Positions 38,812 through 50,175 of a DNA stretch of 64,000 bases are shown here, piece after piece (the first letter of the stretch is position 1; the number at the start of each line of letters is the position of its first letter). The stretch covers positions 226,843 through 290,842 of the forward strand of contig JABGUJ010000002.1 in assembly GCA_018646625.1 (NCBI GenBank), written 5' to 3'. Source of the stretch: Candidatus Woesearchaeota archaeon (GTDB lineage: Archaea; Nanobdellota; Nanobdellia; Woesearchaeales; JABGUJ01). Both the position numbers and the translations under genes were made by a program. The notes beneath the pieces are model-generated. The model had not been told where the DNA came from. It made no database searches and worked only from the letters and a program-made list of their open reading frames with translations.

Positions 38812-38874
38812 TTATCCTTCTTTTGACAATAAATTTATAAGGTAATTAGCTTGAGCTTTATAATATAGATAAAT

Positions 38875-38958
38875 GCTGCCGTGGCACAATCTGGTACTGC
38901 GCGGGACTGGAAATCCCGTTTCCTCCGGGATATCCCGGTTCAAATCCGGGCGGCAGCG
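38875..38958 (+). tRNA. tRNA-Ser(GGA)
   Basis: Acceptor GCTGCCG/CGGCAGC; anticodon arm CGGGA-CTGGAAA-TCCCG (anticodon GGA); long variable arm; T arm CCCGG-TTCAAAT-CCGGG; discriminator G. Confidence 0.95.
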
Positions 38959-38968
38959 TTGTAACATC

Positions 38969-39021
38969 AATCGAACGCCGTCTTTTGGCCACAAGTTGTG
39001 GCTAAAGACTTTTATTCGATT
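38969..39021 (+). promoter_or_regulatory. Large stem-loop between attL and integrase start
   Basis: AATCGAA/TTCGATT, GTCTTT/AAAGAC and GCCACAA/TTGTGGC nested inverted repeats. Confidence 0.7.
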
Positions 39022-39047
39022 AAGACTCATTCTATGCTGGAGGAAAA

Positions 39048-40256
39048 ATGGAAAAAAAGCTAGATATCCATAACTACCAGAAACGTTTGGAAAATACTCT
39101 TAGATTTATTGAAAGGTCTAAGATTTCTGAGAAAAATAAGGAGCTAATAATGAGCTTCAGAGATGAACTAGTACTTCAGGGTTTAAGCCTTGCAAGGGTT
39201 GAAAGATATCTTAGCTTATCTAGAATCATTGCTGAGAAAATCAACATAGATTTTGATAAAGCTAAGATTGAAGACTTAAAAAGATTTGTCGGCGAGATAC
39301 AACAAAGAGAGGATTACTCACCCTGGACAAAACAGTTGTACAAAGTAACTTTAAGAAAATTCTACAAATGGATGAAGCAAACAGAAGAATATCCTCCGGA
39401 GGTAAGTTGGATTAAAATTAATGTTAGTAAGTCAGAGAAAAAGCTTCCTTCCGAAGGAGAATTGCTCACTGAGAACGAAGTTAGACAACTAATAAATTCA
39501 ACTAATAATTTAAGAGACAAAGCTTTAATTTCTGTGTTATATGAGAGTGGATGCAGAGTTGGAGAAATTGGCACCATGAGAATAAAGAATGTTAGTAGTG
39601 ATAAATACGGAATTCTCTTAAGTGTAAGAGGCAAAACTGGAGCAAGAAAAATAAGAATTGTGTCTTCTCTCTTTGCTCTAAACTCTTGGTTATCGGTGCA
39701 CCCTTTTAAATTCGATAATGAAAAACCATTATGGGTGCGTTTGGATGGGAAGCAACCTGGCAAACTTCTTTGCTATGATGCAATAAGGGTTATGCTCAAG
39801 AATGCTTTCAACAAAGCAGGAATAAAAAAGAAACATAACCCACATTTTTTCAGACATTCAAGAGCCACGCAAATGGCGAACCACTTAACAGAATTTCAAA
39901 TGAATCAATATTTTGGATGGGCTCAAGGATCAGATATGCCATCGACGTATGTACATCTATCTGGTCGAGAAACAGATGGCGCGATTCTTGCAATGAATGG
40001 AATTATTATTGACAAAAACAAAGATACAGAGTCTAGTAAACCTTTACTTTGTCCAAGATGTGACTACTTGAATCCTCATGGAAGAGAACATTGTATAAAA
40101 TGTGATCTCATTATTGATGAAGGTGAGAGATTAAAACAAGAGATAAAAGATAAAGATAGTTTCACAGAAGACTCAATTTGTGAGGATACTCTCACTAAAC
40201 TATTTAGAAAGCCACGATTTAGAGCACTTGTCATGAGTGAGCTTGGAAATATTTAG
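39048..40256 (+). CDS. Tyrosine recombinase/integrase with C-terminal zinc ribbon
   Basis: LYESGCRVGEIGTMRIKNV (R), HFFRHSRATQM (HxxR), STYVHLSGRE (Y); CPRCDYLNPHGREHCIKC. Confidence 0.92.
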   Translation: MEKKLDIHNYQKRLENTLRFIERSKISEKNKELIMSFRDELVLQGLSLARVERYLSLSRIIAEKINIDFDKAKIEDLKRFVGEIQQREDYSPWTKQLYKVTLRKFYKWMKQTEEYPPEVSWIKINVSKSEKKLPSEGELLTENEVRQLINSTNNLRDKALISVLYESGCRVGEIGTMRIKNVSSDKYGILLSVRGKTGARKIRIVSSLFALNSWLSVHPFKFDNEKPLWVRLDGKQPGKLLCYDAIRVMLKNAFNKAGIKKKHNPHFFRHSRATQMANHLTEFQMNQYFGWAQGSDMPSTYVHLSGRETDGAILAMNGIIIDKNKDTESSKPLLCPRCDYLNPHGREHCIKCDLIIDEGERLKQEIKDKDSFTEDSICEDTLTKLFRKPRFRALVMSELGNI

Positions 40257-40305
40257 AATCTCTTTATTTTTTTCTTTTATTAACTCTAAGAGAATAACTT
40301 TCCAC

Positions 40306-40500
40306 TCAGGTTTTTTTGTTTCCATTTTTCATCTCTCGGTATATTTTTATCAACATGTCTTCAATGAATGAGTTTTCATGAATCAAACGAGTACGAACAT
40401 ATTCAGGTATTGATCTAAAACCACGATCATTGGATTGTTGCTTTAATCTTGCCATCTCATCTTTTGTAAGAGGAATTTTTTGTCTATGATTTCGCACCAT
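40306..40500 (-). CDS. Small DNA-binding protein, ribbon-helix-helix-like
   Basis: IPLTKDEMARLKQQSNDRGFRSIPEYVRTRLI. Confidence 0.55.
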   Translation of the reverse strand: MVRNHRQKIPLTKDEMARLKQQSNDRGFRSIPEYVRTRLIHENSFIEDMLIKIYREMKNGNKKT

Positions 40501-40534
40501 GACTTAGTTTATACTTTGTGAAGTTATAAATTAA

Positions 40535-40581
40535 TCTGGTAAGGAAATCTGACCTAAAATCTGACCCAAAACCTTACCAGA
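40535..40581. promoter_or_regulatory. Divergent control region: 10-bp inverted repeat TCTGGTAAGG/CCTTACCAGA enclosing two AAATCTGACC direct repeats
   Basis: Exact repeats at 40535-40544/40572-40581 and 40545-40554/40557-40566. Confidence 0.75.
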
Positions 40582-40616
40582 CGTGCTTATTAATTATAAC
40601 GACGTTAGTATATTCT

Positions 40617-40760
40617 ATGAAAACAATACGACTTGAGGACGTGGATTATGATCACATCCCTGCGCTTAATACGAACGTAGGAATTGGTGGGCTAATTTTT
40701 GTTCCATTGGAATGGCAGAAAAAAAGAGTTCTTGTATTATTAATGGAGGACATACAATGA
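40617..40760 (+). CDS. Small DUF2080-like (transposon-encoded type) protein, 47 aa
   Basis: MKTIRLEDVDYDHIPALNTNVGIGGLIFVPLEWQKKRVLVLLMEDIQ; stop overlaps next ATG (ATGA). Confidence 0.55.
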   Translation: MKTIRLEDVDYDHIPALNTNVGIGGLIFVPLEWQKKRVLVLLMEDIQ

Positions 40761-40915
40761 TTGCACTACAAAAAACAACAAACATTCGACTTAAGTCGAG
40801 GGAGGAAGTTGAGCAGTTATACTCTTCTAAAAAGAGCGGCTGCTTTGAGCTTCCTCTTTTCTTTAACAATGTGTTCAAAGAAAACTTTGGACGTGTTGAA
40901 TATGATTTAGATTAA
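40757..40915 (+). CDS. Small protein (52 aa), translationally coupled to the preceding ORF
   Basis: ATGA overlap; MIALQKTTNIRLKSREEVEQLY... Confidence 0.5.
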   Translation: MIALQKTTNIRLKSREEVEQLYSSKKSGCFELPLFFNNVFKENFGRVEYDLD

Positions 40916-40928
40916 AGAGGTGGTTTCA

Positions 40929-41249
40929 ATGAAATTGGTATGGATATTGTTTCTGTTGTTGCTTATGCCGATAGTATTTGCAGACACAGCAGACCTTGAT
41001 GGAAGCTTGAGTTCAGAAGACAAGGCAAAGTTTGATCAGATTCTAGAACCGGTGATGAAAATTTATAATTTTGTGAAGTATATTTCGTCAGTGGTTGCTG
41101 CAATATTTTTGCTCTATGCAGGAATTACATACATGACTTCTGGTGGCGATCCTAAACAAAGAGATCAAGCAAAGAGTATTGCAGGATATGTTGTTATTGG
41201 ATTAATGATCATCTGGGCTGCACCAATAATTGTAGGAGTGTTAGTATGA
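40929..41249 (+). CDS. VirB2/TrbC-like pilin-type membrane protein
   Basis: Signal peptide ...PIVFA, then two TMs with IFLLYAGITYMTSGGDPKQRDQAKSIAGYVVIGLMIIWAAP; SD AGAGGTGG. Confidence 0.6.
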   Translation: MKLVWILFLLLLMPIVFADTADLDGSLSSEDKAKFDQILEPVMKIYNFVKYISSVVAAIFLLYAGITYMTSGGDPKQRDQAKSIAGYVVIGLMIIWAAPIIVGVLV

Positions 41250-42565
41250 AATTAGCAATTATATTTTTGTTGTTGATTCCATTTAGTTTTGCGATTGAGT
41301 GTTCTCAGTTTCCCAACCCTTCTGAGTGCGATGATGTGATGTCAAGCAGTTTGGATTTGTCTGAACAACAATATCTTCTTTCGTCTCTTCTAGCAAATTC
41401 TCAAAATAAACCACCCTGCAGTTTTGTAAGAGACTGGAACCTTGCTCTTGACACATCAATACCGCCTGAAGGGGTGGAGAAACGCTCTAAAGGTCAAATT
41501 CGCAATGCTTGGGTTAAACTATTTACAGTGATGCCTTCTGTTAAGGAAGAAAAGTTGTTGATAGGTTCTAATGGTTCAATGCTTGTTGGATTTGGTTATG
41601 ATTTCCAAATGCCTTATGGAAGATTGAATGGTGATTGTAGAACAGATTACAATTATCTAGGTAACAGTGTTGCAATTGATGGTTATGTTAATGATGAGTA
41701 TGTTGGTTCTGGAAGAGTAATTGATTATGAAACTTCTATTGATTCTTCATTTAAAGTTGTTTACAAAGTTAAAGAAAAGTATCTTGTTAGCCATCATAAG
41801 TATTATTGGCACTGTTGTAGATGGAAAAGAGGTCACTGTAAAAGCTGGTGCAGGAAATGTGGTTTCAAATATGCTGATGAAATTCATGAAAGTTTGAGTG
41901 TTAGTGATTCGCTTTTTGGTTATTTTTCAGATTATGCCCTTGATGCTTCCTTTGTTGCTATTGATTCTTATCTTGGAAATACAAAAGGTGTTCTAAATAG
42001 CACTAATTACTCTCGACTTAGTTTACTATTAGATTCTGGTAATTTATCTTTTCATAATTATGAATACTCTGTCGTTTGGGATAACAGCAGCGTATTGACT
42101 ATCAAGGCTCGTTCTGTTCCTACTGTTTCTTCAGTTGGAATTGTTAGGAATAATGAAACTATAATGTTTGAAGATAGCTCTAAGTGTTCTATATTTATGT
42201 CAAATCATTTCTCTAATATGAATTTTGATTGTAATTTTACTTTTGATCAGGTTGTACCTTTGATTAAATTAGATAAAGATACTTTTGATGTTGGTGAGAC
42301 TATTTCTGTTAGGTTGGAACCTTCTGACATTGATTTTAATGTTAGTTATGGAAATACTTCTCGTTATGTTCATGATTCAACTTCTTTTGTTGCTACGAAT
42401 ATTGCTAACAGAATAGTTCTTCGTTATAATGATCGTGAGTATGATCAGTTAATTATTGTAAAAAATAAAGACAAATCAATGTTTATGTTATCACTTTCAG
42501 TTTTTGGCACTGTGAATTATGTTATTATAGAATTACTGAAAAGGTATTTCGGTATGCATCTCTAG
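41246..42565 (+). CDS. Secreted/C-terminally anchored protein, cysteine-rich segment
   Basis: Signal peptide, YYWHCCRWKRGHCKSWCRKCG, C-terminal TM; overlaps pilin-like gene. Confidence 0.6.
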   Translation: MKLAIIFLLLIPFSFAIECSQFPNPSECDDVMSSSLDLSEQQYLLSSLLANSQNKPPCSFVRDWNLALDTSIPPEGVEKRSKGQIRNAWVKLFTVMPSVKEEKLLIGSNGSMLVGFGYDFQMPYGRLNGDCRTDYNYLGNSVAIDGYVNDEYVGSGRVIDYETSIDSSFKVVYKVKEKYLVSHHKYYWHCCRWKRGHCKSWCRKCGFKYADEIHESLSVSDSLFGYFSDYALDASFVAIDSYLGNTKGVLNSTNYSRLSLLLDSGNLSFHNYEYSVVWDNSSVLTIKARSVPTVSSVGIVRNNETIMFEDSSKCSIFMSNHFSNMNFDCNFTFDQVVPLIKLDKDTFDVGETISVRLEPSDIDFNVSYGNTSRYVHDSTSFVATNIANRIVLRYNDREYDQLIIVKNKDKSMFMLSLSVFGTVNYVIIELLKRYFGMHL

Positions 42566-42614
42566 GCGGCAACTAAGGAATGTGGTACGTTTGGCGTAAC
42601 AGAGCCCAATGACT

Positions 42615-44117
42615 TCATTTATCTTTCATGTGCTCTTTAATATATTCGTGAAAGTCTTTATCTTTCATGTTGAGCTGTCTTTTTAACTCTTTAATTCCCA
42701 ATTCCCAATCTCCTCTATCTAATTTAGAGTGCCTAAAAACACGATACTTTTTATTGTGTTTTTCCTTAGGAAGTTCGATGAGATTCCACAATTCATTGTT
42801 TAGATGATCATTATCTATATGATGGATCTCATAACCTTTTTTTAATCCCAATTTTTTATAGTATATGTGTCTATGTAAAAAGTACTTATTGCCATTCTTA
42901 AATTCAATCATCAAATAATCCGAGTGATGATCATAATATACTTCAGTGGAGCCCCCCCCATATAATAGTTCATATTTCTTCGTCTGTTTAATTATATATG
43001 CTTCACGACTTTTTCCCTTTGCAATTTTAATTGTTTCTTCGGCTTCAGATATTTCCTTAGACGCATTATTTCTTAATCTTCTGTAATCATCACATTCTTT
43101 TGTCAATCGGTTAATTTCTTTTTCAAATAACTCTCTAGCATGACCCTTTGCTTTTTTTGCATTATGTTCTAAGTCTTTTATCTTGTTCCTTAGATACTTT
43201 TCTTTCTTGGTATATTTATTTATTTTCTTATGGATATTTTCTATATTTTTTTCCAATCCTTTCAGTTTTGATATGGCGTTCTCAAGCTTGCACTCTTCTT
43301 TTCTTCTTCTATAAAAACAAAAAAACCAAATACAAAAAGAACAAATAATTACGCTCATCACTGCTAGTGTAACTCTATTTTTTAGTTTGACCTCTTGTTT
43401 ACGATCTAATGTATCAGTACTGTCTAAACAAGTTTCGTTATTATATCTATCAGATTTGCATTCCCAGGAGCAAGTGTAACTCTCACTCACATTCTTTGAA
43501 GCTGGTTCTAAACATAGAATATCATTACAATTTATTGTTCCGTTAGAACATTCAACAACCTTCTGATGATCGCAGAATCCTGCAATGTTACATATTCCTG
43601 AACCACATCTTGAGTCATCATATAGCGGATTACAAGGTGAATGGTCACTCAAACATTCTTTGTTGCTACACGTTTTACAGACAGTCTTATTCACAGGCAC
43701 TTCAAGAACCTTAGGGAACATGACGCTTGGTCTTGCAACATAGTATTCTACACTTTCAGGAACAATTGTACAATTTCCAAATTGAACACCATCAAAACAA
43801 ACTTCTTTCATCATAGAATAAGATTCGGCTTCAATTCTTAAAGCAAATTCTCTTTTTCCTGCAGTGTTTCCTTCAACAACATAACTAAAAAATGCGGTGA
43901 CGTTATATCTATTAGGATTATAAACACTGAAAGTGCTTCTATTTCCTTCGGTAAAATCAGAAATGACTAATGTGTCACCTCCTATTTTATCTTTGTTAAG
44001 AATAGAAAGCATTTCCTTCGATTGAATAACTGTTATTTCTTCAGTATATTGACAATCAAGAGCATAGGAAGATAGAGATAACATTAAAAATAAAACTAGT
44101 AATATATATTTTTTCAT
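42615..44117 (-). CDS. Membrane-anchored protein: Cys-rich ectodomain, one TM, coiled coil, C-terminal HNH nuclease-like domain
   Basis: Signal peptide, TM VTLAVMSVIICSFCIWFFCF, HNH IYYKKLGLKKGYEIHHIDNDHLNNELWNLIEL. Confidence 0.7.
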   Translation of the reverse strand: MKKYILLVLFLMLSLSSYALDCQYTEEITVIQSKEMLSILNKDKIGGDTLVISDFTEGNRSTFSVYNPNRYNVTAFFSYVVEGNTAGKREFALRIEAESYSMMKEVCFDGVQFGNCTIVPESVEYYVARPSVMFPKVLEVPVNKTVCKTCSNKECLSDHSPCNPLYDDSRCGSGICNIAGFCDHQKVVECSNGTINCNDILCLEPASKNVSESYTCSWECKSDRYNNETCLDSTDTLDRKQEVKLKNRVTLAVMSVIICSFCIWFFCFYRRRKEECKLENAISKLKGLEKNIENIHKKINKYTKKEKYLRNKIKDLEHNAKKAKGHARELFEKEINRLTKECDDYRRLRNNASKEISEAEETIKIAKGKSREAYIIKQTKKYELLYGGGSTEVYYDHHSDYLMIEFKNGNKYFLHRHIYYKKLGLKKGYEIHHIDNDHLNNELWNLIELPKEKHNKKYRVFRHSKLDRGDWELGIKELKRQLNMKDKDFHEYIKEHMKDK

Positions 44118-44138
44118 TTTAATCTCTAATTTTTTAAT

Positions 44139-44543
44139 TTAAATATTAGTATCATATTTTTCCCATTGGCCTTTTACTTTAACTGTATATCCTTGACCTT
44201 TAGGTCCGTAATCTCTTATGAAACTTAAAATAAAATACTCCATCCACTTATACATAGGCAATACTCCTTGTATTTCCAGAACATATTCGTATTCATTGAT
44301 TTCAGTCATATCATGAACATCTGCACTTATTGTAAATTTGGATTTTCTTTCATGGTAATAATCATAAAAATTTTCTGGAGGAGATTTATTTTTTGGAAAT
44401 CTTATCAATAATTGAGCAATTGCAGGATTATTTGTATTGACTTGCTTTCTTCTAAGTACAACGCTCTCTTTTTCTTGTTCTAAGGCAACTAATCGGCTTT
44501 CCGGGAGTTTCATACTGCCATCTTCATTAAATTGAATTTTCAT
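44139..44543 (-). CDS. Protein of unknown function
   Basis: ORF from internal ATG MKIQFNEDG. Confidence 0.5.
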   Translation of the reverse strand: MKIQFNEDGSMKLPESRLVALEQEKESVVLRRKQVNTNNPAIAQLLIRFPKNKSPPENFYDYYHERKSKFTISADVHDMTEINEYEYVLEIQGVLPMYKWMEYFILSFIRDYGPKGQGYTVKVKGQWEKYDTNI

Positions 44544-44544
44544 T

Positions 44545-44754
44545 TTACCAAAATGACCTTTTCTTTCTTGCATGAAGACTTGAGTGTGCACTTCTGCTCA
44601 TGTTTGTTAAGTTTGATTTTCTGAAGTTACTCTTGTCTCCATCAACGTGATGTGTTACTTGGTCACCTCTTGGCCTTGCAACCGTACGGTGTACCAACTT
44701 ATCACTATCGCTCCATCTTGGATATCCTTTTCTATCTTTGTAAAAACTACTCAT
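44545..44754 (-). CDS. Small HNH-like nuclease domain protein
   Basis: VTHHVDGDKSNFRKSNLTNMSRSAHSSLH; SD GGAGG. Confidence 0.65.
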   Translation of the reverse strand: MSSFYKDRKGYPRWSDSDKLVHRTVARPRGDQVTHHVDGDKSNFRKSNLTNMSRSAHSSLHARKKRSFW

Positions 44755-44759
44755 TTTTC

Positions 44760-45110
44760 TTACCTCCTACCACGTCTCACACTTGTTTTTGGTTTTGCTC
44801 TTGCTCTTTTCTTTTGAACTCTTACATTGCCTTTTTCACCACGTCCTTTACCTCTTGACTTTACTGTTCTAGCTCTTGCTAAACTTACTCCAATTCCTTT
44901 TGGATCTTGTTTAATCATCTCAGCAATCTTGTCAATCTCGGAAGGATCTGGTCTCTTATGGCCAAGTTCATCCAATGCAGTATCCATTATTTTTGTGATA
45001 GAAAGACCATGGTCATTAATGAATTTAAGCTGACTAGGGTATAATCTTAAATTTGCCCTACAGCTCCTTCTTTCCCTTCTTTGCATATCTTTCAAATCTT
45101 CTAGTTTCAT
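44760..45110 (-). CDS. DNA-binding-like protein (RHH-like N-terminus, very basic C-terminal tail)
   Basis: NLRLYPSQLKFINDHGLSITKIMDTALDELG; tail KSRGKGRGEKGNVRVQKKRARAKPKTSVRRGRR. Confidence 0.5.
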   Translation of the reverse strand: MKLEDLKDMQRRERRSCRANLRLYPSQLKFINDHGLSITKIMDTALDELGHKRPDPSEIDKIAEMIKQDPKGIGVSLARARTVKSRGKGRGEKGNVRVQKKRARAKPKTSVRRGRR

Positions 45111-45133
45111 GTTGGCCCTCTTTCTTGAGTCAT

Positions 45134-45147
45134 GTTGTACGTACAAC
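45134..45147. promoter_or_regulatory. Perfect 14-bp palindrome GTTGTACGTACAAC in divergent intergenic region
   Basis: Exact self-complementarity. Confidence 0.65.
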
Positions 45148-45220
45148 CGTATTAATATTTAAACTTTTCGGAGTTAGTGTGGGAATTTACACATCAAAAA
45201 CAATTATAGAGGTGATTTCT

Positions 45221-46030
45221 ATGTCAGAATGCGGTTTAACCAACCTAGCTTCCTGTCTTCCAGAGAGGTTTTTTGAGTATATTGTATACATAATCAACGC
45301 ACCGATCCAAGCCCTTCTAAATCTGTTTAAACAACTATTAACACAACCAGCCAATATTGAGATGTTCTACTCAGTCTGGGCAATTATTGTGTATATGATA
45401 TCTTTGTTTTACGGATTATTTTTTCTTTATGCAGGATTTCAGTTTATGATTTCCGGATATGATGCAGCAAAAAGAGAGAATGCAAAAGAACAAACTACAT
45501 TATCTGAAGATGACGAAGAGTATTATATCAGAGGTAGAATAATAACAGATCTCAGTCTTGATCAATATAAATCACCCCTAAATATAACTTTGTTGAGTCA
45601 TGCTCCTGAAAGAAATTTCGTAGAACTGTTGGTTAATGAGTATAGCAAATTTATTGATGGGTGGATTAAATCAAAAGATAAAGGGTTCTATTCAGTTCCA
45701 TACATTCACAGACCTGGAACGCACTCATTACAAAAAGATTTCAATCCAGATTTCTTTTTTAAGAAAGGAGATAGAATTATTGTAGTGGAAATAAAATCTG
45801 AAGATGATTCTACAATTAAAAATAAAGATAAACTTGAGGGCGCAACAACCTATTTTAATAAATTAAATGAAATATTAGGGGGCAAGTCATTCTATGACTT
45901 CCATTTTTTAGATCCTAGAGATTACAAACAATTCTTTGAGAATAAATTCAAAAAGAATCTTGCATTCAAAGGATCTTTACATGCTGATTTGGAGACTAAA
46001 TCAAGAGAAGAATTAAAGGAGGGGAGATAA
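45221..46030 (+). CDS. Chimeric ORF: VirB2/T4SS-like membrane N-terminus joined to a type III restriction/helicase-nuclease C-terminal fragment
   Basis: FYGLFFLYAGFQFMISGYDAAKRENAKEQ resembles the 40929 protein; then FNPDFFFKKGDRIIVVEIKSEDD; SD GAGGTGAT before ATG 45221. Confidence 0.6.
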   Translation: MSECGLTNLASCLPERFFEYIVYIINAPIQALLNLFKQLLTQPANIEMFYSVWAIIVYMISLFYGLFFLYAGFQFMISGYDAAKRENAKEQTTLSEDDEEYYIRGRIITDLSLDQYKSPLNITLLSHAPERNFVELLVNEYSKFIDGWIKSKDKGFYSVPYIHRPGTHSLQKDFNPDFFFKKGDRIIVVEIKSEDDSTIKNKDKLEGATTYFNKLNEILGGKSFYDFHFLDPRDYKQFFENKFKKNLAFKGSLHADLETKSREELKEGR

Positions 46031-46031
46031 A

Positions 46032-47468
46032 ATTCCACTTCTAACCAAATCTAAGTACATGAACGGCCTCCAGTGTCCTAGACTTCTATGGTTTGCCAAT
46101 AAAAAACAGCTACCGGAAATCAGTCTTTTTGATGAACATAAATTCAGCCAAGGACATGATTTTGAAGAGCATGTAAAAAAGTTACATCCTAATAGTGTAG
46201 ACCTTAACGGACTAGGATTTAAAGAAAATCTTGATAAAACAAAAGAAGCAATAGAACAGAATCAAACTATTTTTGAAGCTGGTTTTATGACCAATAATTT
46301 ATTTGTCAGATCTGATTTAATCATTCCAACAGATAATGGTTGGGATTTATACGAAATCAAATCTACGACCAAATCAAAACCTCAACATATTCCTGATCTG
46401 GCATTTCAAAAATATGTATTAGAGAAAGCCGGTCTAAAAGTCAATAAATCTTTTCTCATTCACCTAAATAATGAATATATTAAAAATGGAGAAATTAATC
46501 CCGAAAAACTCACAATTCAAGAAGAAGTTACTGACCAAGTAAATACTATAACAGATATTGAAGAACACATTCCTAAGTTTAGAGAAATAATGGATCTACC
46601 AGAGTATAACGAGATGCCAATCTCTCAAATGTGCAATAAACCCTACGAGTGTCCTTTAAAGAAAAAGTGCTGGGGAACATTACCAGAAAATAATGTATTA
46701 CAACTTACAAACTGGAGAGTGTATTGGAAACTGTTAGGTGAAGGTATTGAAGATATTAAAGATATTCCAGAAGGAACAGATCTTAAACCAAGGGATGAAA
46801 TAATAATAGAATCATTAGAACATAATCCATACATATCAAAAGAACACATTAAACACTTTCTCTTGTCATTACATTATCCATTATATCATTTTGATTTTGA
46901 AACGTTTGATACAGCCGTTCCAATTTATGATAAATCAAGACCTTATCAGAAAATGCCTTTTCAATATTCATTACATATAGAGCAAGAGGATGGTTCTACT
47001 CAACACAAAGAGTTCCTATCAGAAGGAGGAGATCCAAGACCAGCACTACTTAAACAAATGAAAGGTGATTTAGAAGGAACAGGAGATATCATTGTTTACA
47101 ATAAATCATTTGAAATAAGTGTTATGAAGAAATTAGCAGAAGATTTTCCAGAACATAATGATTGGTTACAAGATGCAATTACTAGAATTGTTGATCTAGC
47201 TGATCCGTTTAGAGCATTTTATTACTATAACAATTCTCAAAAAGGTTCCTACTCAATTAAAAAAGTTCTTCCAGCAGTAACAGGCAAAAGTTATTCTGAA
47301 CTTGAGATTAATAACGGCGCAGATGCTAGTATGCTGTATTTTTATAGTCATATAAGACCTAAATTAGACAATAGAGAAGAAATAAGAGCTAATCTGTATA
47401 GGTATTGTGGATTGGATACTGAAGGTATGGTCTGGATTTTGGCCGAATTGAAGAAAATCACAGAATAA
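46032..47468 (+). CDS. DUF2779-type nuclease (Cas4/RecB-like N-terminus plus RNase H-like C-terminus); possible ATT start at 46032, else ATG 46059
   Basis: (I)PLLTKSKYMNGLQCPRLLWF; YEIKSTTK; YHFDFETFD; LYRYCGLDTEGMVWIL. Confidence 0.75.
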   Translation: MPLLTKSKYMNGLQCPRLLWFANKKQLPEISLFDEHKFSQGHDFEEHVKKLHPNSVDLNGLGFKENLDKTKEAIEQNQTIFEAGFMTNNLFVRSDLIIPTDNGWDLYEIKSTTKSKPQHIPDLAFQKYVLEKAGLKVNKSFLIHLNNEYIKNGEINPEKLTIQEEVTDQVNTITDIEEHIPKFREIMDLPEYNEMPISQMCNKPYECPLKKKCWGTLPENNVLQLTNWRVYWKLLGEGIEDIKDIPEGTDLKPRDEIIIESLEHNPYISKEHIKHFLLSLHYPLYHFDFETFDTAVPIYDKSRPYQKMPFQYSLHIEQEDGSTQHKEFLSEGGDPRPALLKQMKGDLEGTGDIIVYNKSFEISVMKKLAEDFPEHNDWLQDAITRIVDLADPFRAFYYYNNSQKGSYSIKKVLPAVTGKSYSELEINNGADASMLYFYSHIRPKLDNREEIRANLYRYCGLDTEGMVWILAELKKITE

Positions 47469-47486
47469 TTTAAATATCCACATCCA

Positions 47487-47846
47487 TTGATTATACTTAA
47501 CATGCATATAAAAAAGGATGATACTAATAGAGTCGATGTGACTCTGGCCTGTGTGGTGAATGAGTATCAGTTCGGCAAGAAAGGATTGGGATTGGCTACA
47601 GCAACAATTAATGGCAGACATCCTCTATCTGGTAAGATAGTTAATGAAGAATGCGATTCTATGTACTACATTATTTCTGGCAAAGGAATAATCCATCATG
47701 AAACTGGAGACTATGAAGTAAATGAAGGTGATGCTTTTTATTTTGAAAAAGGTAAGTGGTACTGGGTTGAAGGTGAAAATATGAAAATTGTTGAACCTTC
47801 TGCACCTGCATGGTTTTATGAACAACATAAAAACTTAGAAGATTAA
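47487..47846 (+). CDS. Cupin-domain protein
   Basis: SMYYIISGKGIIHHETGDYEVNEGDAFYFEKGKWYWVEG; start probably ATG 47502. Confidence 0.75.
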   Translation: MIILNMHIKKDDTNRVDVTLACVVNEYQFGKKGLGLATATINGRHPLSGKIVNEECDSMYYIISGKGIIHHETGDYEVNEGDAFYFEKGKWYWVEGENMKIVEPSAPAWFYEQHKNLED

Positions 47847-48841
47847 TTCTTACTAAGTATATTCTCAGGGAAGAAAGTACACTTATGCACCTTAAGAACT
47901 TCAAAAACAACTTCATCTCCAATCAAATCCTCAAACTCATCGTTAATTTTATCTTGAATCATATTAAAATCTTCCAAAGTTTTGGTATGAAAATCTATCA
48001 TTAATCCCCAGTTACCAACTCCTTTAACTATATAGTATACCTCTAATTGATTCTTCAAAAAATTCACAAACTTTTTTTTACGTTTTTCAGAAGAGTACTG
48101 AAACTGTATAAGCATTATATGCCAAGAGTAACCGACTCGAGAAACATCGAGTATTGGTTTATATGCTTGAATTAAACGTGACTTTTCTAATTTTTTCATA
48201 GAGTGTCTTACCATTTCTAGAGTAAGTCCACTTTCCTTTGATAACTCATTTTTAGTTATTCTGGCGTTCTGAGAAAGCTCTTTTAGAACTAGTAAATCAT
48301 TCTTCTTTAGAATCAAAGGTTCAGGATTGCCTAATAAACTCTGTATTGGAAACTCTTCTTTTGGCGAATCCAATACTGCTTTGTATGATAATTGATGAGC
48401 TTCAATAACGATGAAGAAATCATATCGAATAACTCTATTTCCCAGAATGTCCATCACCTTTGCTAAGGATTTGTCAAACTCTGAAGGATCTTTCGCCATT
48501 AGACAAACTACTAGCTTCCATTCCCCTCTTGACTTTACAAACCAACCAACCTCAGGCATATCTTTGATTCTTTCAAAAACTCTTTTCTCATCTGATTTAG
48601 AAAAATGTTTCAATTTGAAAAAAACATTATAGAAAGTATATCCTAATCTTTGAAGATCAATGTAAGTAACGAACTGAGTAATCACTCCTTTCTCTATCAG
48701 ATTATTAATTCTGTAAAAAACTACTTCTTTAGAAAGTCCTGTTTTCTTTGCTATTTGTATGGTGCTTTGTCTAGAATTTCTGTTTAGCTCTCTAATTATC
48801 TTCTTATCCTTCAAATCTAATGATAGATTTTTTACCCCCAC
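47843..48841 (-). CDS. Lrp/AsnC-family regulator, paralog of 17558-18592
   Basis: LDLKDKKIIRELNRNSRQSTIQIAKKTGLSKEVVFYRINNLIEKGVI. Confidence 0.83.
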   Translation of the reverse strand: MGVKNLSLDLKDKKIIRELNRNSRQSTIQIAKKTGLSKEVVFYRINNLIEKGVITQFVTYIDLQRLGYTFYNVFFKLKHFSKSDEKRVFERIKDMPEVGWFVKSRGEWKLVVCLMAKDPSEFDKSLAKVMDILGNRVIRYDFFIVIEAHQLSYKAVLDSPKEEFPIQSLLGNPEPLILKKNDLLVLKELSQNARITKNELSKESGLTLEMVRHSMKKLEKSRLIQAYKPILDVSRVGYSWHIMLIQFQYSSEKRKKKFVNFLKNQLEVYYIVKGVGNWGLMIDFHTKTLEDFNMIQDKINDEFEDLIGDEVVFEVLKVHKCTFFPENILSKN

Positions 48842-49005
48842 ATTTGAAGTAAAGTGGTACTAATATATAAATTTGTCACAATTTGATAGAAATTCGCCCC
48901 AGTTAAACTTAATAAACATTAGGACATTCTAAGTATGGGGGTAACAAGTAACTTCACTTGAAGTGATTTCTGAGACGACTTAGTAAAAAAGAAGAGGTGA
49001 TTAAT

Positions 49006-49284
49006 TTGATAGATATAGATTCTGAGCTAGGTTTTCCTATAGAGGATGACCTACCCATTTATGAAGTTGCAGGACTCTATCTTAGTACCGGCACCGTAAA
49101 AGCAGTTATGCCTGCAAAGATAGTTCGAGCATTTGGTTTTGAAAAGAAAAATCATTCAATCTCTGCCGTATGGCATTACACGACATCAGAGAAATTCTCC
49201 ATTAATAAAATAAAAGAATTACAAAATAAGAAAGTTAAGTACTGTCTATTCATTCCAGTAAAAAGGAAGTACAAAAAGACCTAG
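49006..49284 (+). CDS. Protein of unknown function (TTG start with GAGGTGA SD)
   Basis: SD and open frame. Confidence 0.5.
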   Translation: MIDIDSELGFPIEDDLPIYEVAGLYLSTGTVKAVMPAKIVRAFGFEKKNHSISAVWHYTTSEKFSINKIKELQNKKVKYCLFIPVKRKYKKT

Positions 49285-49348
49285 GGTCATATTGACTGGA
49301 TAATCCCGTCATAAACTTTATATCTTATTTCATAAAAACAACTTTAGG

Positions 49349-49558
49349 ATGGCCCAACATAAGAAAAAAACAGTTTCTAAAAAGAAAGATTCTCTAGAAG
49401 AGCTCAAGAAGAAGGTTAAATCTATGGAAGATTACTTGGGACCTAAACTTGATTGGAGTATGAATCACTGGCCCATGTATGAACCTGACCGATGGATTCT
49501 AGAATATTGTATGCTACTTAAACAACGCTATTATCAAAAAATGAGACGAATGAAATGA
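49349..49558 (+). CDS. Small protein of unknown function
   Basis: Open frame; Lys-rich N-terminus. Confidence 0.45.
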   Translation: MAQHKKKTVSKKKDSLEELKKKVKSMEDYLGPKLDWSMNHWPMYEPDRWILEYCMLLKQRYYQKMRRMK

Positions 49559-49698
49559 GTAACACATCAATAGAATATTTACATACAAATGCACACAAAG
49601 AAAGAAAATTCTAACAAGGTCGAAGCGGGTCTAGCTTTCGGCCCCGTAGAGAAAATATTTTAGATACTTTTATATATATCAACAGGTGGTTGATAACC

Positions 49699-49986
49699 AT
49701 GGGATTATTTGGTTTTTGGAGAAAGAAGAAGGTTACATATAAACTTGTAAAGGATGGTAAAGCCACATACATTGGTACCACTAATAATCCCAAGCGTAGA
49801 AACGTAGAGCATTCTAAAAGTGGAAAAAAATATGATTATTTGCAAGTTACTTCCTCACGAGTTTCAAAATCTGAAGCTGAAAGAAGAGAAACAAGAAACT
49901 TGCGTTCATACAAAAAAGCGACAGGAAAAAGACCCACATACAACAAAACTTCGGATGGTAAATTTAAATTTAAAAAGAAATATTGA
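49699..49986 (+). CDS. GIY-YIG-type nuclease-like protein
   Basis: TYKLVKDGKATYIGTTNNPKRRNVEHSKS...E residues downstream. Confidence 0.65.
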   Translation: MGLFGFWRKKKVTYKLVKDGKATYIGTTNNPKRRNVEHSKSGKKYDYLQVTSSRVSKSEAERRETRNLRSYKKATGKRPTYNKTSDGKFKFKKKY

Positions 49987-50102
49987 TTCATGTTCTCGTA
50001 AGCAAATTCTCAAATAAGTACTCCCTGCGTTTGAACTCATATAGCTTTCAATTTTGACATCCAAAAAGGAAATTTTAAATAGTCTAAAGGCTTGTAAATT
50101 TA

Positions 50103-50175
50103 TAGCGTAGAATCAGGTTAAACGTGCTACGGATGCGGAAAGAAGCCCGTACTCCAGGGCGGCAGCGTTTCTTTT
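50103..50175 (+). ncRNA. Candidate small structured RNA overlapping attR
   Basis: TATA-like TTTTAAAT at 50073; stems GCGTAG/CTACG or TACGG/CCGTA; TTTCTTTT 3' end. Confidence 0.3.

Follow-up and report, generated by a model that had tools for sequence, protein, structure and literature searches.

Several described systems lie close to the locus analysed here, an interval of about 11.2 kb (38948-50169) in a 64,000-nt stretch of DNA (the window, whose numbering is used throughout) from a Woesearchaeales archaeon with a genome of 1.57 Mb in 4 contigs, the whole of which was searched. The integrative and conjugative elements (ICEs) of Thaumarchaeota (PMC6563490) and the pNOB8-type conjugative plasmids of Sulfolobus (PMC8371274) carry an intact tyrosine recombinase, direct-repeat attachment (att) sites and homologues of VirB4 and VirB6. 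The known archaeal conjugative elements are without a recognised relaxase (PMC6563490, PMC9905601), and archaeal conjugative plasmids are said to be without a recognisable pilus protein (PMC9905601). Type IV secretion systems (T4SS) of the MPF-FATA class are found in ICE modules of Gram-positive bacteria and mycoplasmas (CD1110, Mbov_0397), and the T4SS of Patescibacteria is related to this class (PMC12102498). The Ced and Ted systems of Crenarchaeota are chromosomal DNA import machines combining a VirB2-type pilin, a polytopic VirB6-like protein and a VirB4-type ATPase (PMC9905601). Finally, Islander-type genomic islands (PMC4383910) target tRNA genes, with the integrase by attL and a displaced 3' fragment of the tRNA gene at attR.

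The interval 38948-50169 is likely to be a decayed element of the integrative-conjugative type, integrated in a tRNA-Ser(GGA) gene and excisable but not self-transmissible. It shares the intact recombinase and direct-repeat att sites with the Thaumarchaeota ICEs and pNOB8-type plasmids, and its intact relatives, identified below by L and G numbers, also share the VirB4 and VirB6 homologues and the lack of a recognised relaxase. It differs from them in size (11 kb, and 16.7 kb in the relative L049, against a median of 64 kb in the archaeal ICE comparison; PMC6563490, PMC8371274), in a VirB2/TrbC pilin that Pfam recognises in the relatives, in the absence of VirD4 from L049 and in the loss of VirB4 from the window copy. 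The MPF-FATA modules are nearest to the VirB4 of the relatives, with its PrgI (VirB3) N-terminus, and their pilin Mbov_0395 is weakly matched by the window pilin; the differences are the archaeal host, a VirB6-like protein below the Pfam and NCBIfam cut-offs and the absence of a visible relaxase or coupling protein. The three components of Ced and Ted recur in the module of the family, but here it travels with an integrase and att sites. From Islander-type islands the element does not differ in principle, sharing the tRNA target, the position of the integrase and the displaced 3' fragment; its cargo is of the archaeal T4SS and defence type.

The insertion site and the integrase region consist of the following features, with the basis of each assignment in brackets.

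38875..38958, + strand: tRNA-Ser(GGA), the integration target, intact (Infernal RF00005; ARAGORN gives 38874-38959)
38948..38960, + strand: attL core GGGCGGCAGCGTT, the last 11 nt of the tRNA plus TT (exact repeat search)
38969..39021, no strand: imperfect palindrome AATCGA..GTCTTTTGGCCACAAGTTGTGGCTAAAGAC..TCGATT between attL and int, candidate recombinase-arm or regulatory site (fold z -2.9)
39048..40256, + strand: tyrosine recombinase, 402 aa (Pfam Phage_integrase, E 1.8e-19)
40306..40500, - strand: small RHH-type protein with a weak NikA-like match below the cut-off (Pfam)
50157..50169, + strand: attR core, the sole copy genome-wide outside a tRNA gene (exact repeat search)

The 13-nt core occurs exactly at both coordinates, as stated in a preliminary description of the locus. 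About 3e-5 exact matches would be expected by chance (25 kb, one strand, local composition), and with up to two mismatches allowed the window still contained 2 matches, compared with 0.16 expected from shuffles. The genome holds four copies of GGGCGGCAGCGTT, the att pair and the 3' ends of tRNA-Ser(CGA) and tRNA-Ser(TGA), so the copy at 50157 is the only one that does not belong to a tRNA gene. The repeat could in theory be fortuitous and the integrase merely lie beside the tRNA, which the shortness of the core would allow. Both the expected number of matches and the register of the repeat at the tRNA end, identical in four relatives, speak against this, and the explanation was rejected as extremely improbable in view of the genome-wide count and the family-wide pattern. 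Integration at the tRNA 3' end through the 13-bp core is well supported by the anatomy of the locus, and the placement of an integrative element in tRNA-Ser(GGA) proposed earlier stands, with at least four relatives sharing the arrangement. The flanking genes, EF-1A and S10 on the left and CFA synthase on the right, were likewise assigned correctly, as judged by domain search. The T-rich tract to the right of attR, taken previously as a sign of an uninterrupted tRNA, proved to be a weak argument because the T content after the tRNAs of this genome varies widely: 6 of the 32 match the count of the attR side and 8 of the 32 have as few T's as the attL side.

The recombinase gene starts 88-90 nt past the tRNA, in agreement with the 90 nt reported before, and its catalytic residues R170, K196, H266xxR269, W291 and Y301 are all intact. 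The C-terminus contains CxxC...CxxC pairs (residues 335-352). Since the gene is intact inside the element, the integrase is not of the suicidal SSV1 type, which has its att site within the integrase gene; attL lies 88 nt upstream of the gene and the motif is HxxR, not KxxR. The pNOB8-type archaeal integrases are defined by the signature R..YxxR..Y (PMC8371274); the integrase in the window has HxxR (H266-R269) in place of YxxR and resembles the pNOB8 type in that its gene is left unsplit on integration.

Relatives of the integrase with 35-52% identity are common in the same order, and the family was confirmed at 243 places over archaea and some bacterial bins. A same-strand tRNA gene, of varied specificity and mostly 50-130 nt away, lies close upstream of the integrase in 42 of 105 family places, which are not all independent since some loci are one contig fetched twice. 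In four relatives a downstream repeat of 12-19 nt ends at the tRNA end: 19 nt of tRNA-Thr bounding 16.7 kb (L049), 13 nt of tRNA-Glu bounding 9.9 kb (L058), 18 nt of tRNA-Ser bounding 4.8 kb (L063) and 12 nt of tRNA-Glu bounding 7.1 kb (L134). The core in the window fits the same rule. A search for att repeats in G039 found none at a tRNA. In about eight relatives an RHH homologue is encoded on the other strand just past int, at a distance of 119-166 nt.

Proviruses, too, typically use a tyrosine recombinase to integrate into tRNA genes, and tailed proviruses have been reported from Woesearchaeales (PMC11705971), so the interval was also considered as a tRNA-targeted provirus or its remnant. 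No capsid, terminase or portal family was found with PHROGs and Pfam, the IMG/VR scan gave only five weak integrase relatives (27-37% identity) and the interior is of the T4SS type. The absence of capsid and packaging genes led to rejection of the provirus, which we regard as very unlikely. The plasmid collection contained distant integrases only, the best of them, from haloarchaea, at 38% identity.

Two observations concern the family at large. Integrase relatives occur in contigs binned as Planctomycetes, Omnitrophota, Bacteroidetes, Zixibacteria, WOR-3 and others (L079, L088, L090, L091, L093, L100, L105, L117-L119, L122-L124), which would reflect either inter-domain transfer or mis-binned archaeal contigs. 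Like the window at 38969-39021, the tRNA-int gaps of L049, L047, L080, L081, L055 and L056 contain inverted repeats, whose arms are often GGGCTACAAA or of the GGCCA type; such repeats are possible sites for recombinase arms or a regulator. A hairpin conserved throughout the family between attL and int was considered and dropped, the folding scores being mixed among relatives.

The second group of features that carries the interpretation is the T4SS module.

40920..41249, + strand: VirB2/TrbC-type T4SS pilin (Pfam T4SS_pilin E 2e-14, TrbC E 9e-9)
41246..42565, + strand: secreted/transmembrane T4SS-linked protein, 439 aa (synteny and homology with relatives)
45221..45487, + strand: truncated VirB6-like gene covering residues 6-94 of ~282, with 71% identity to L049 (comparison with relatives)
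45488..46030, + strand: orphan PD-(D/E)XK nuclease fragment (PD...EIK), in frame with the VirB6 stump (weak Hjc-like matches only)

The apparently complete 16.7-kb element of L049, bounded by att repeats, encodes in order VirB2, the secreted/transmembrane protein, a polytopic VirB6-like protein of 282 aa and a VirB4 of 1038 aa, which begins with PrgI and contains a TraG/VirB4 P-loop domain. The best NCBIfam matches of the relatives' VirB4 are the CD1110 and Mbov_0397 ICE ATPases, and the match to VirB4 of PDB entry 4ag5 has an E of 3e-36; the label VirB6-like is based on position and topology only, the protein passing no Pfam or NCBIfam cut-off. This order from VirB2 to VirB4 was found in at least eight loci, and in L049, L104 and G039 the module lies on the same element or contig as a close relative of the window integrase. 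In L194 (10043-12073), L195 (7010-9061) and L212 (6759-8786) the secreted protein and the VirB6-like protein form a single open reading frame (ORF), which suggests a VirB6 with a large ectodomain.

In the window the module is broken, which the preliminary description overlooked. A 2.6-kb block on the opposite strand (42615-45146), with two HNH genes inside, splits it, and 45053-46030 is one ORF fusing the truncated VirB6-like protein to the nuclease fragment. The VirB6 homology ends abruptly at 45487, at residue ~94 of ~282 and within a conserved stretch, and is followed by an unrelated fragment of 175 aa; the fusion is presumably a deletion scar. The fragment (45503-46030) was at first read as the C-terminus of a type III restriction enzyme, a reading dropped as the matches were only weak ones of the Hjc type; two weak genome matches (L157, L158) were uninformative. 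Judged as an ICE, the window copy has no VirB4, which is present in the relatives, and as to the mating pore it has VirB2 together with a VirB6-like protein cut off after ~95 residues. The element has no VirB4, nor does the whole genome beyond one partial match of 22 bits; neither a relaxase nor VirD4 was detected in the window by Pfam. The claim of a functional mobile element is therefore weaker for this copy.

Another way to account for the incomplete module is to see in the interval an intact small element of cryptic or satellite type, which had no full T4SS at any time and keeps its pilin and surface protein to exploit, or to disturb, the transfer machine of another element in the same cell. 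The ORFs of int, VirB2 and the secreted protein are uninterrupted, and integrative and mobilizable elements that borrow conjugation machinery are common among bacteria (PMC5704250). The scar-like junction of VirB6 with an unrelated fragment inside a conserved stretch and the lack of a helper VirB4 in this genome argue against such an element, which is considered improbable.

For the decayed element the following history is proposed on the basis of sequence comparison. The recombinase would insert a circular form at the 3' end of tRNA-Ser(GGA), with crossover within the 13-bp core common to attP and the tRNA, leaving an intact tRNA at attL and the displaced 3' fragment at attR. On excision, the predicted circular junction would connect the sequence left of 50157, via GGGCGGCAGCGTT, to GTAACATCAATCG, and the empty site would connect tRNA-Ser, via the core, to TCTTTTAATTC. 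The putative ancestor would have been an integrative-conjugative-type element with VirB2, the secreted/transmembrane protein, the VirB6-like protein and PrgI::VirB4, and with restriction-modification (R-M) and DUF2779 genes as defence cargo. The simplest course of events would be a deletion from within virB6 to within the nuclease gene, in which virB6 lost its C-terminal two thirds, virB4 disappeared entirely and the nuclease gene lost its beginning, together with insertion of the HNH-bearing block that interrupts the module. Excision remains plausible because the recombinase gene is unsplit inside the element and both att sites are intact, whereas self-transfer is not expected because VirB4 and the full VirB6 are missing. 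The activity of the integrase and the direction of the decay are presumed in this account, and the module of the relatives presumably moves DNA between cells; since L049 shows no relaxase or coupling protein, we infer the conjugative character of the family from VirB2 and VirB4.

The remaining genes of the interval are listed below.

42615..44117, - strand: membrane-anchored HNH protein, 500 aa (signal peptide, ectodomain, transmembrane segment, coiled coil, HNH_3), in the block splitting the module (Pfam)
44139..44591, - strand: 150-aa protein with a weak relative near DUF2779 in L202 (comparison with relatives)
44545..44754, - strand: small HNH_3 protein (Pfam E 4.9e-5, just under the cut-off)
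44760..45146, - strand: 128-aa basic protein without family match (ORF)
46059..47468, + strand: DUF2779 protein with Cas4-like PD-(D/E)XK and DEDDy-type exonuclease motifs (Pfam, motifs)
47487..47846, + strand: cupin, convergent with the Lrp gene; the pair is also present in G125 (Pfam)
47843..48841, - strand: double-domain Lrp/AsnC regulator (Pfam)
48997..49284, + strand: 95-aa protein without family match (ORF)
49349..49558, + strand: 69-aa protein with a weak relative near DUF2779 in L200 (comparison with relatives)
49690..49986, + strand: small GIY-YIG-like protein (E 4e-4, below the cut-off)

The HNH, DUF2779 and Lrp genes named earlier were thus found again and GIY-YIG only as a weak match, while the gene called pilin-like is a T4SS pilin of the TrbC/VirB2 type. 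The nine nearest homologues of the DUF2779 protein share 57-76% identity with it. DUF2779 and VirB4 lie within one stretch of 10-20 kb in G039, G137, G168, G100 and G118 (the last cut by the contig end), and beside DUF2779 are type I R-M genes in G039, C5-methylase and MutH genes in G137 and a C5-methylase gene in G168. DUF2779, recurring as cargo of the T4SS elements, thus tends to mark a defence cargo.

The right part of the interval bears on a composite origin, in which only the left part would be the element, the genes up to 50156 would be resident DNA or a second insertion, and the second 13-mer would be the tRNA fragment of an earlier event. Islands are commonly stacked at one tRNA, this genome is rich in Lrp-type regulators and the cupin-Lrp pair occurs also in G125. 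On the other hand, relatives of DUF2779 and of small proteins encoded in the right part are found close to T4SS or DUF2779 loci, and the tRNA end is not repeated anywhere between the att sites; a composite is considered unlikely. Double-domain Lrp/AsnC gave 12 matches in this 1.57-Mb genome (G000) and similar numbers in relatives.

Several points weigh against a single decayed conjugative-type element. The core is only 13 bp long, and the element is known from assembled sequence. None of 29 S10 neighbourhoods in other genomes, none of them of the same family or orthologous, shows tRNA-Ser directly after S10; the CFA synthase neighbourhoods of other genomes, with no same-family genome among them, have different neighbours and no empty site. 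The ORFs scanned in the complete relative L049 include neither a relaxase nor VirD4, and the virB6 fusion might have arisen from a misjoin in the assembly. Resident DNA could account for the right third (cupin, Lrp), and since the genome has about a dozen double-Lrp matches the membership of this third rests mainly on the att boundary.

The preliminary description called the element undescribed, which holds for this copy within the searchable literature; its kind is ordinary, archaeal ICEs and tRNA islands being already known, and the copy itself is damaged. A full-text search, covering few subscription journals, found no paper on conjugation-type elements in Woesearchaeota or DPANN archaea, whose mobile elements are barely described. 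It is a tentative possibility, put at somewhat less than even, that a large and so far unnamed family of small ICE-type elements targeting tRNA genes exists in Woesearchaeales and other archaea, with a canonical VirB2, a VirB6-like pore fused or adjacent to an ectodomain, PrgI::VirB4, no relaxase or VirD4 and R-M/DUF2779 cargo, and that the window copy belongs to it in decayed form, perhaps still capable of excision. Such a family would be the mobile counterpart of the Ced and Ted import machines, and because of its VirB2 pilin and small size it may be a distinct variant. The locus and its relatives show a recognisable VirB2 pilin encoded by archaeal mobile DNA and supply an integrase, an att rule and an order of transfer genes that can be used to find intact copies.

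PADLOC matched the DUF2779 protein as Cas4-like only and gave no named defence system. In Woesearchaeales DUF2779 lies repeatedly beside R-M genes (L150 12096-19335, L194 12507-17954, L195 2460-5954, L202 9353-17615, L210 2406-5869), and could possibly be their defence partner; in L202 it is near ORFs resembling type I R-M by eye and a relative of the 44139-44591 protein. Relatives of the membrane-anchored HNH protein (42615-44117) in L196 (7697-11281) and L210 (3-1121) combine a secreted ectodomain and one transmembrane segment with a swapped cytoplasmic module of nuclease type, all near DUF2779. This module is HNH in the window and in L210, and apparently UvrD-helicase-like in L196.

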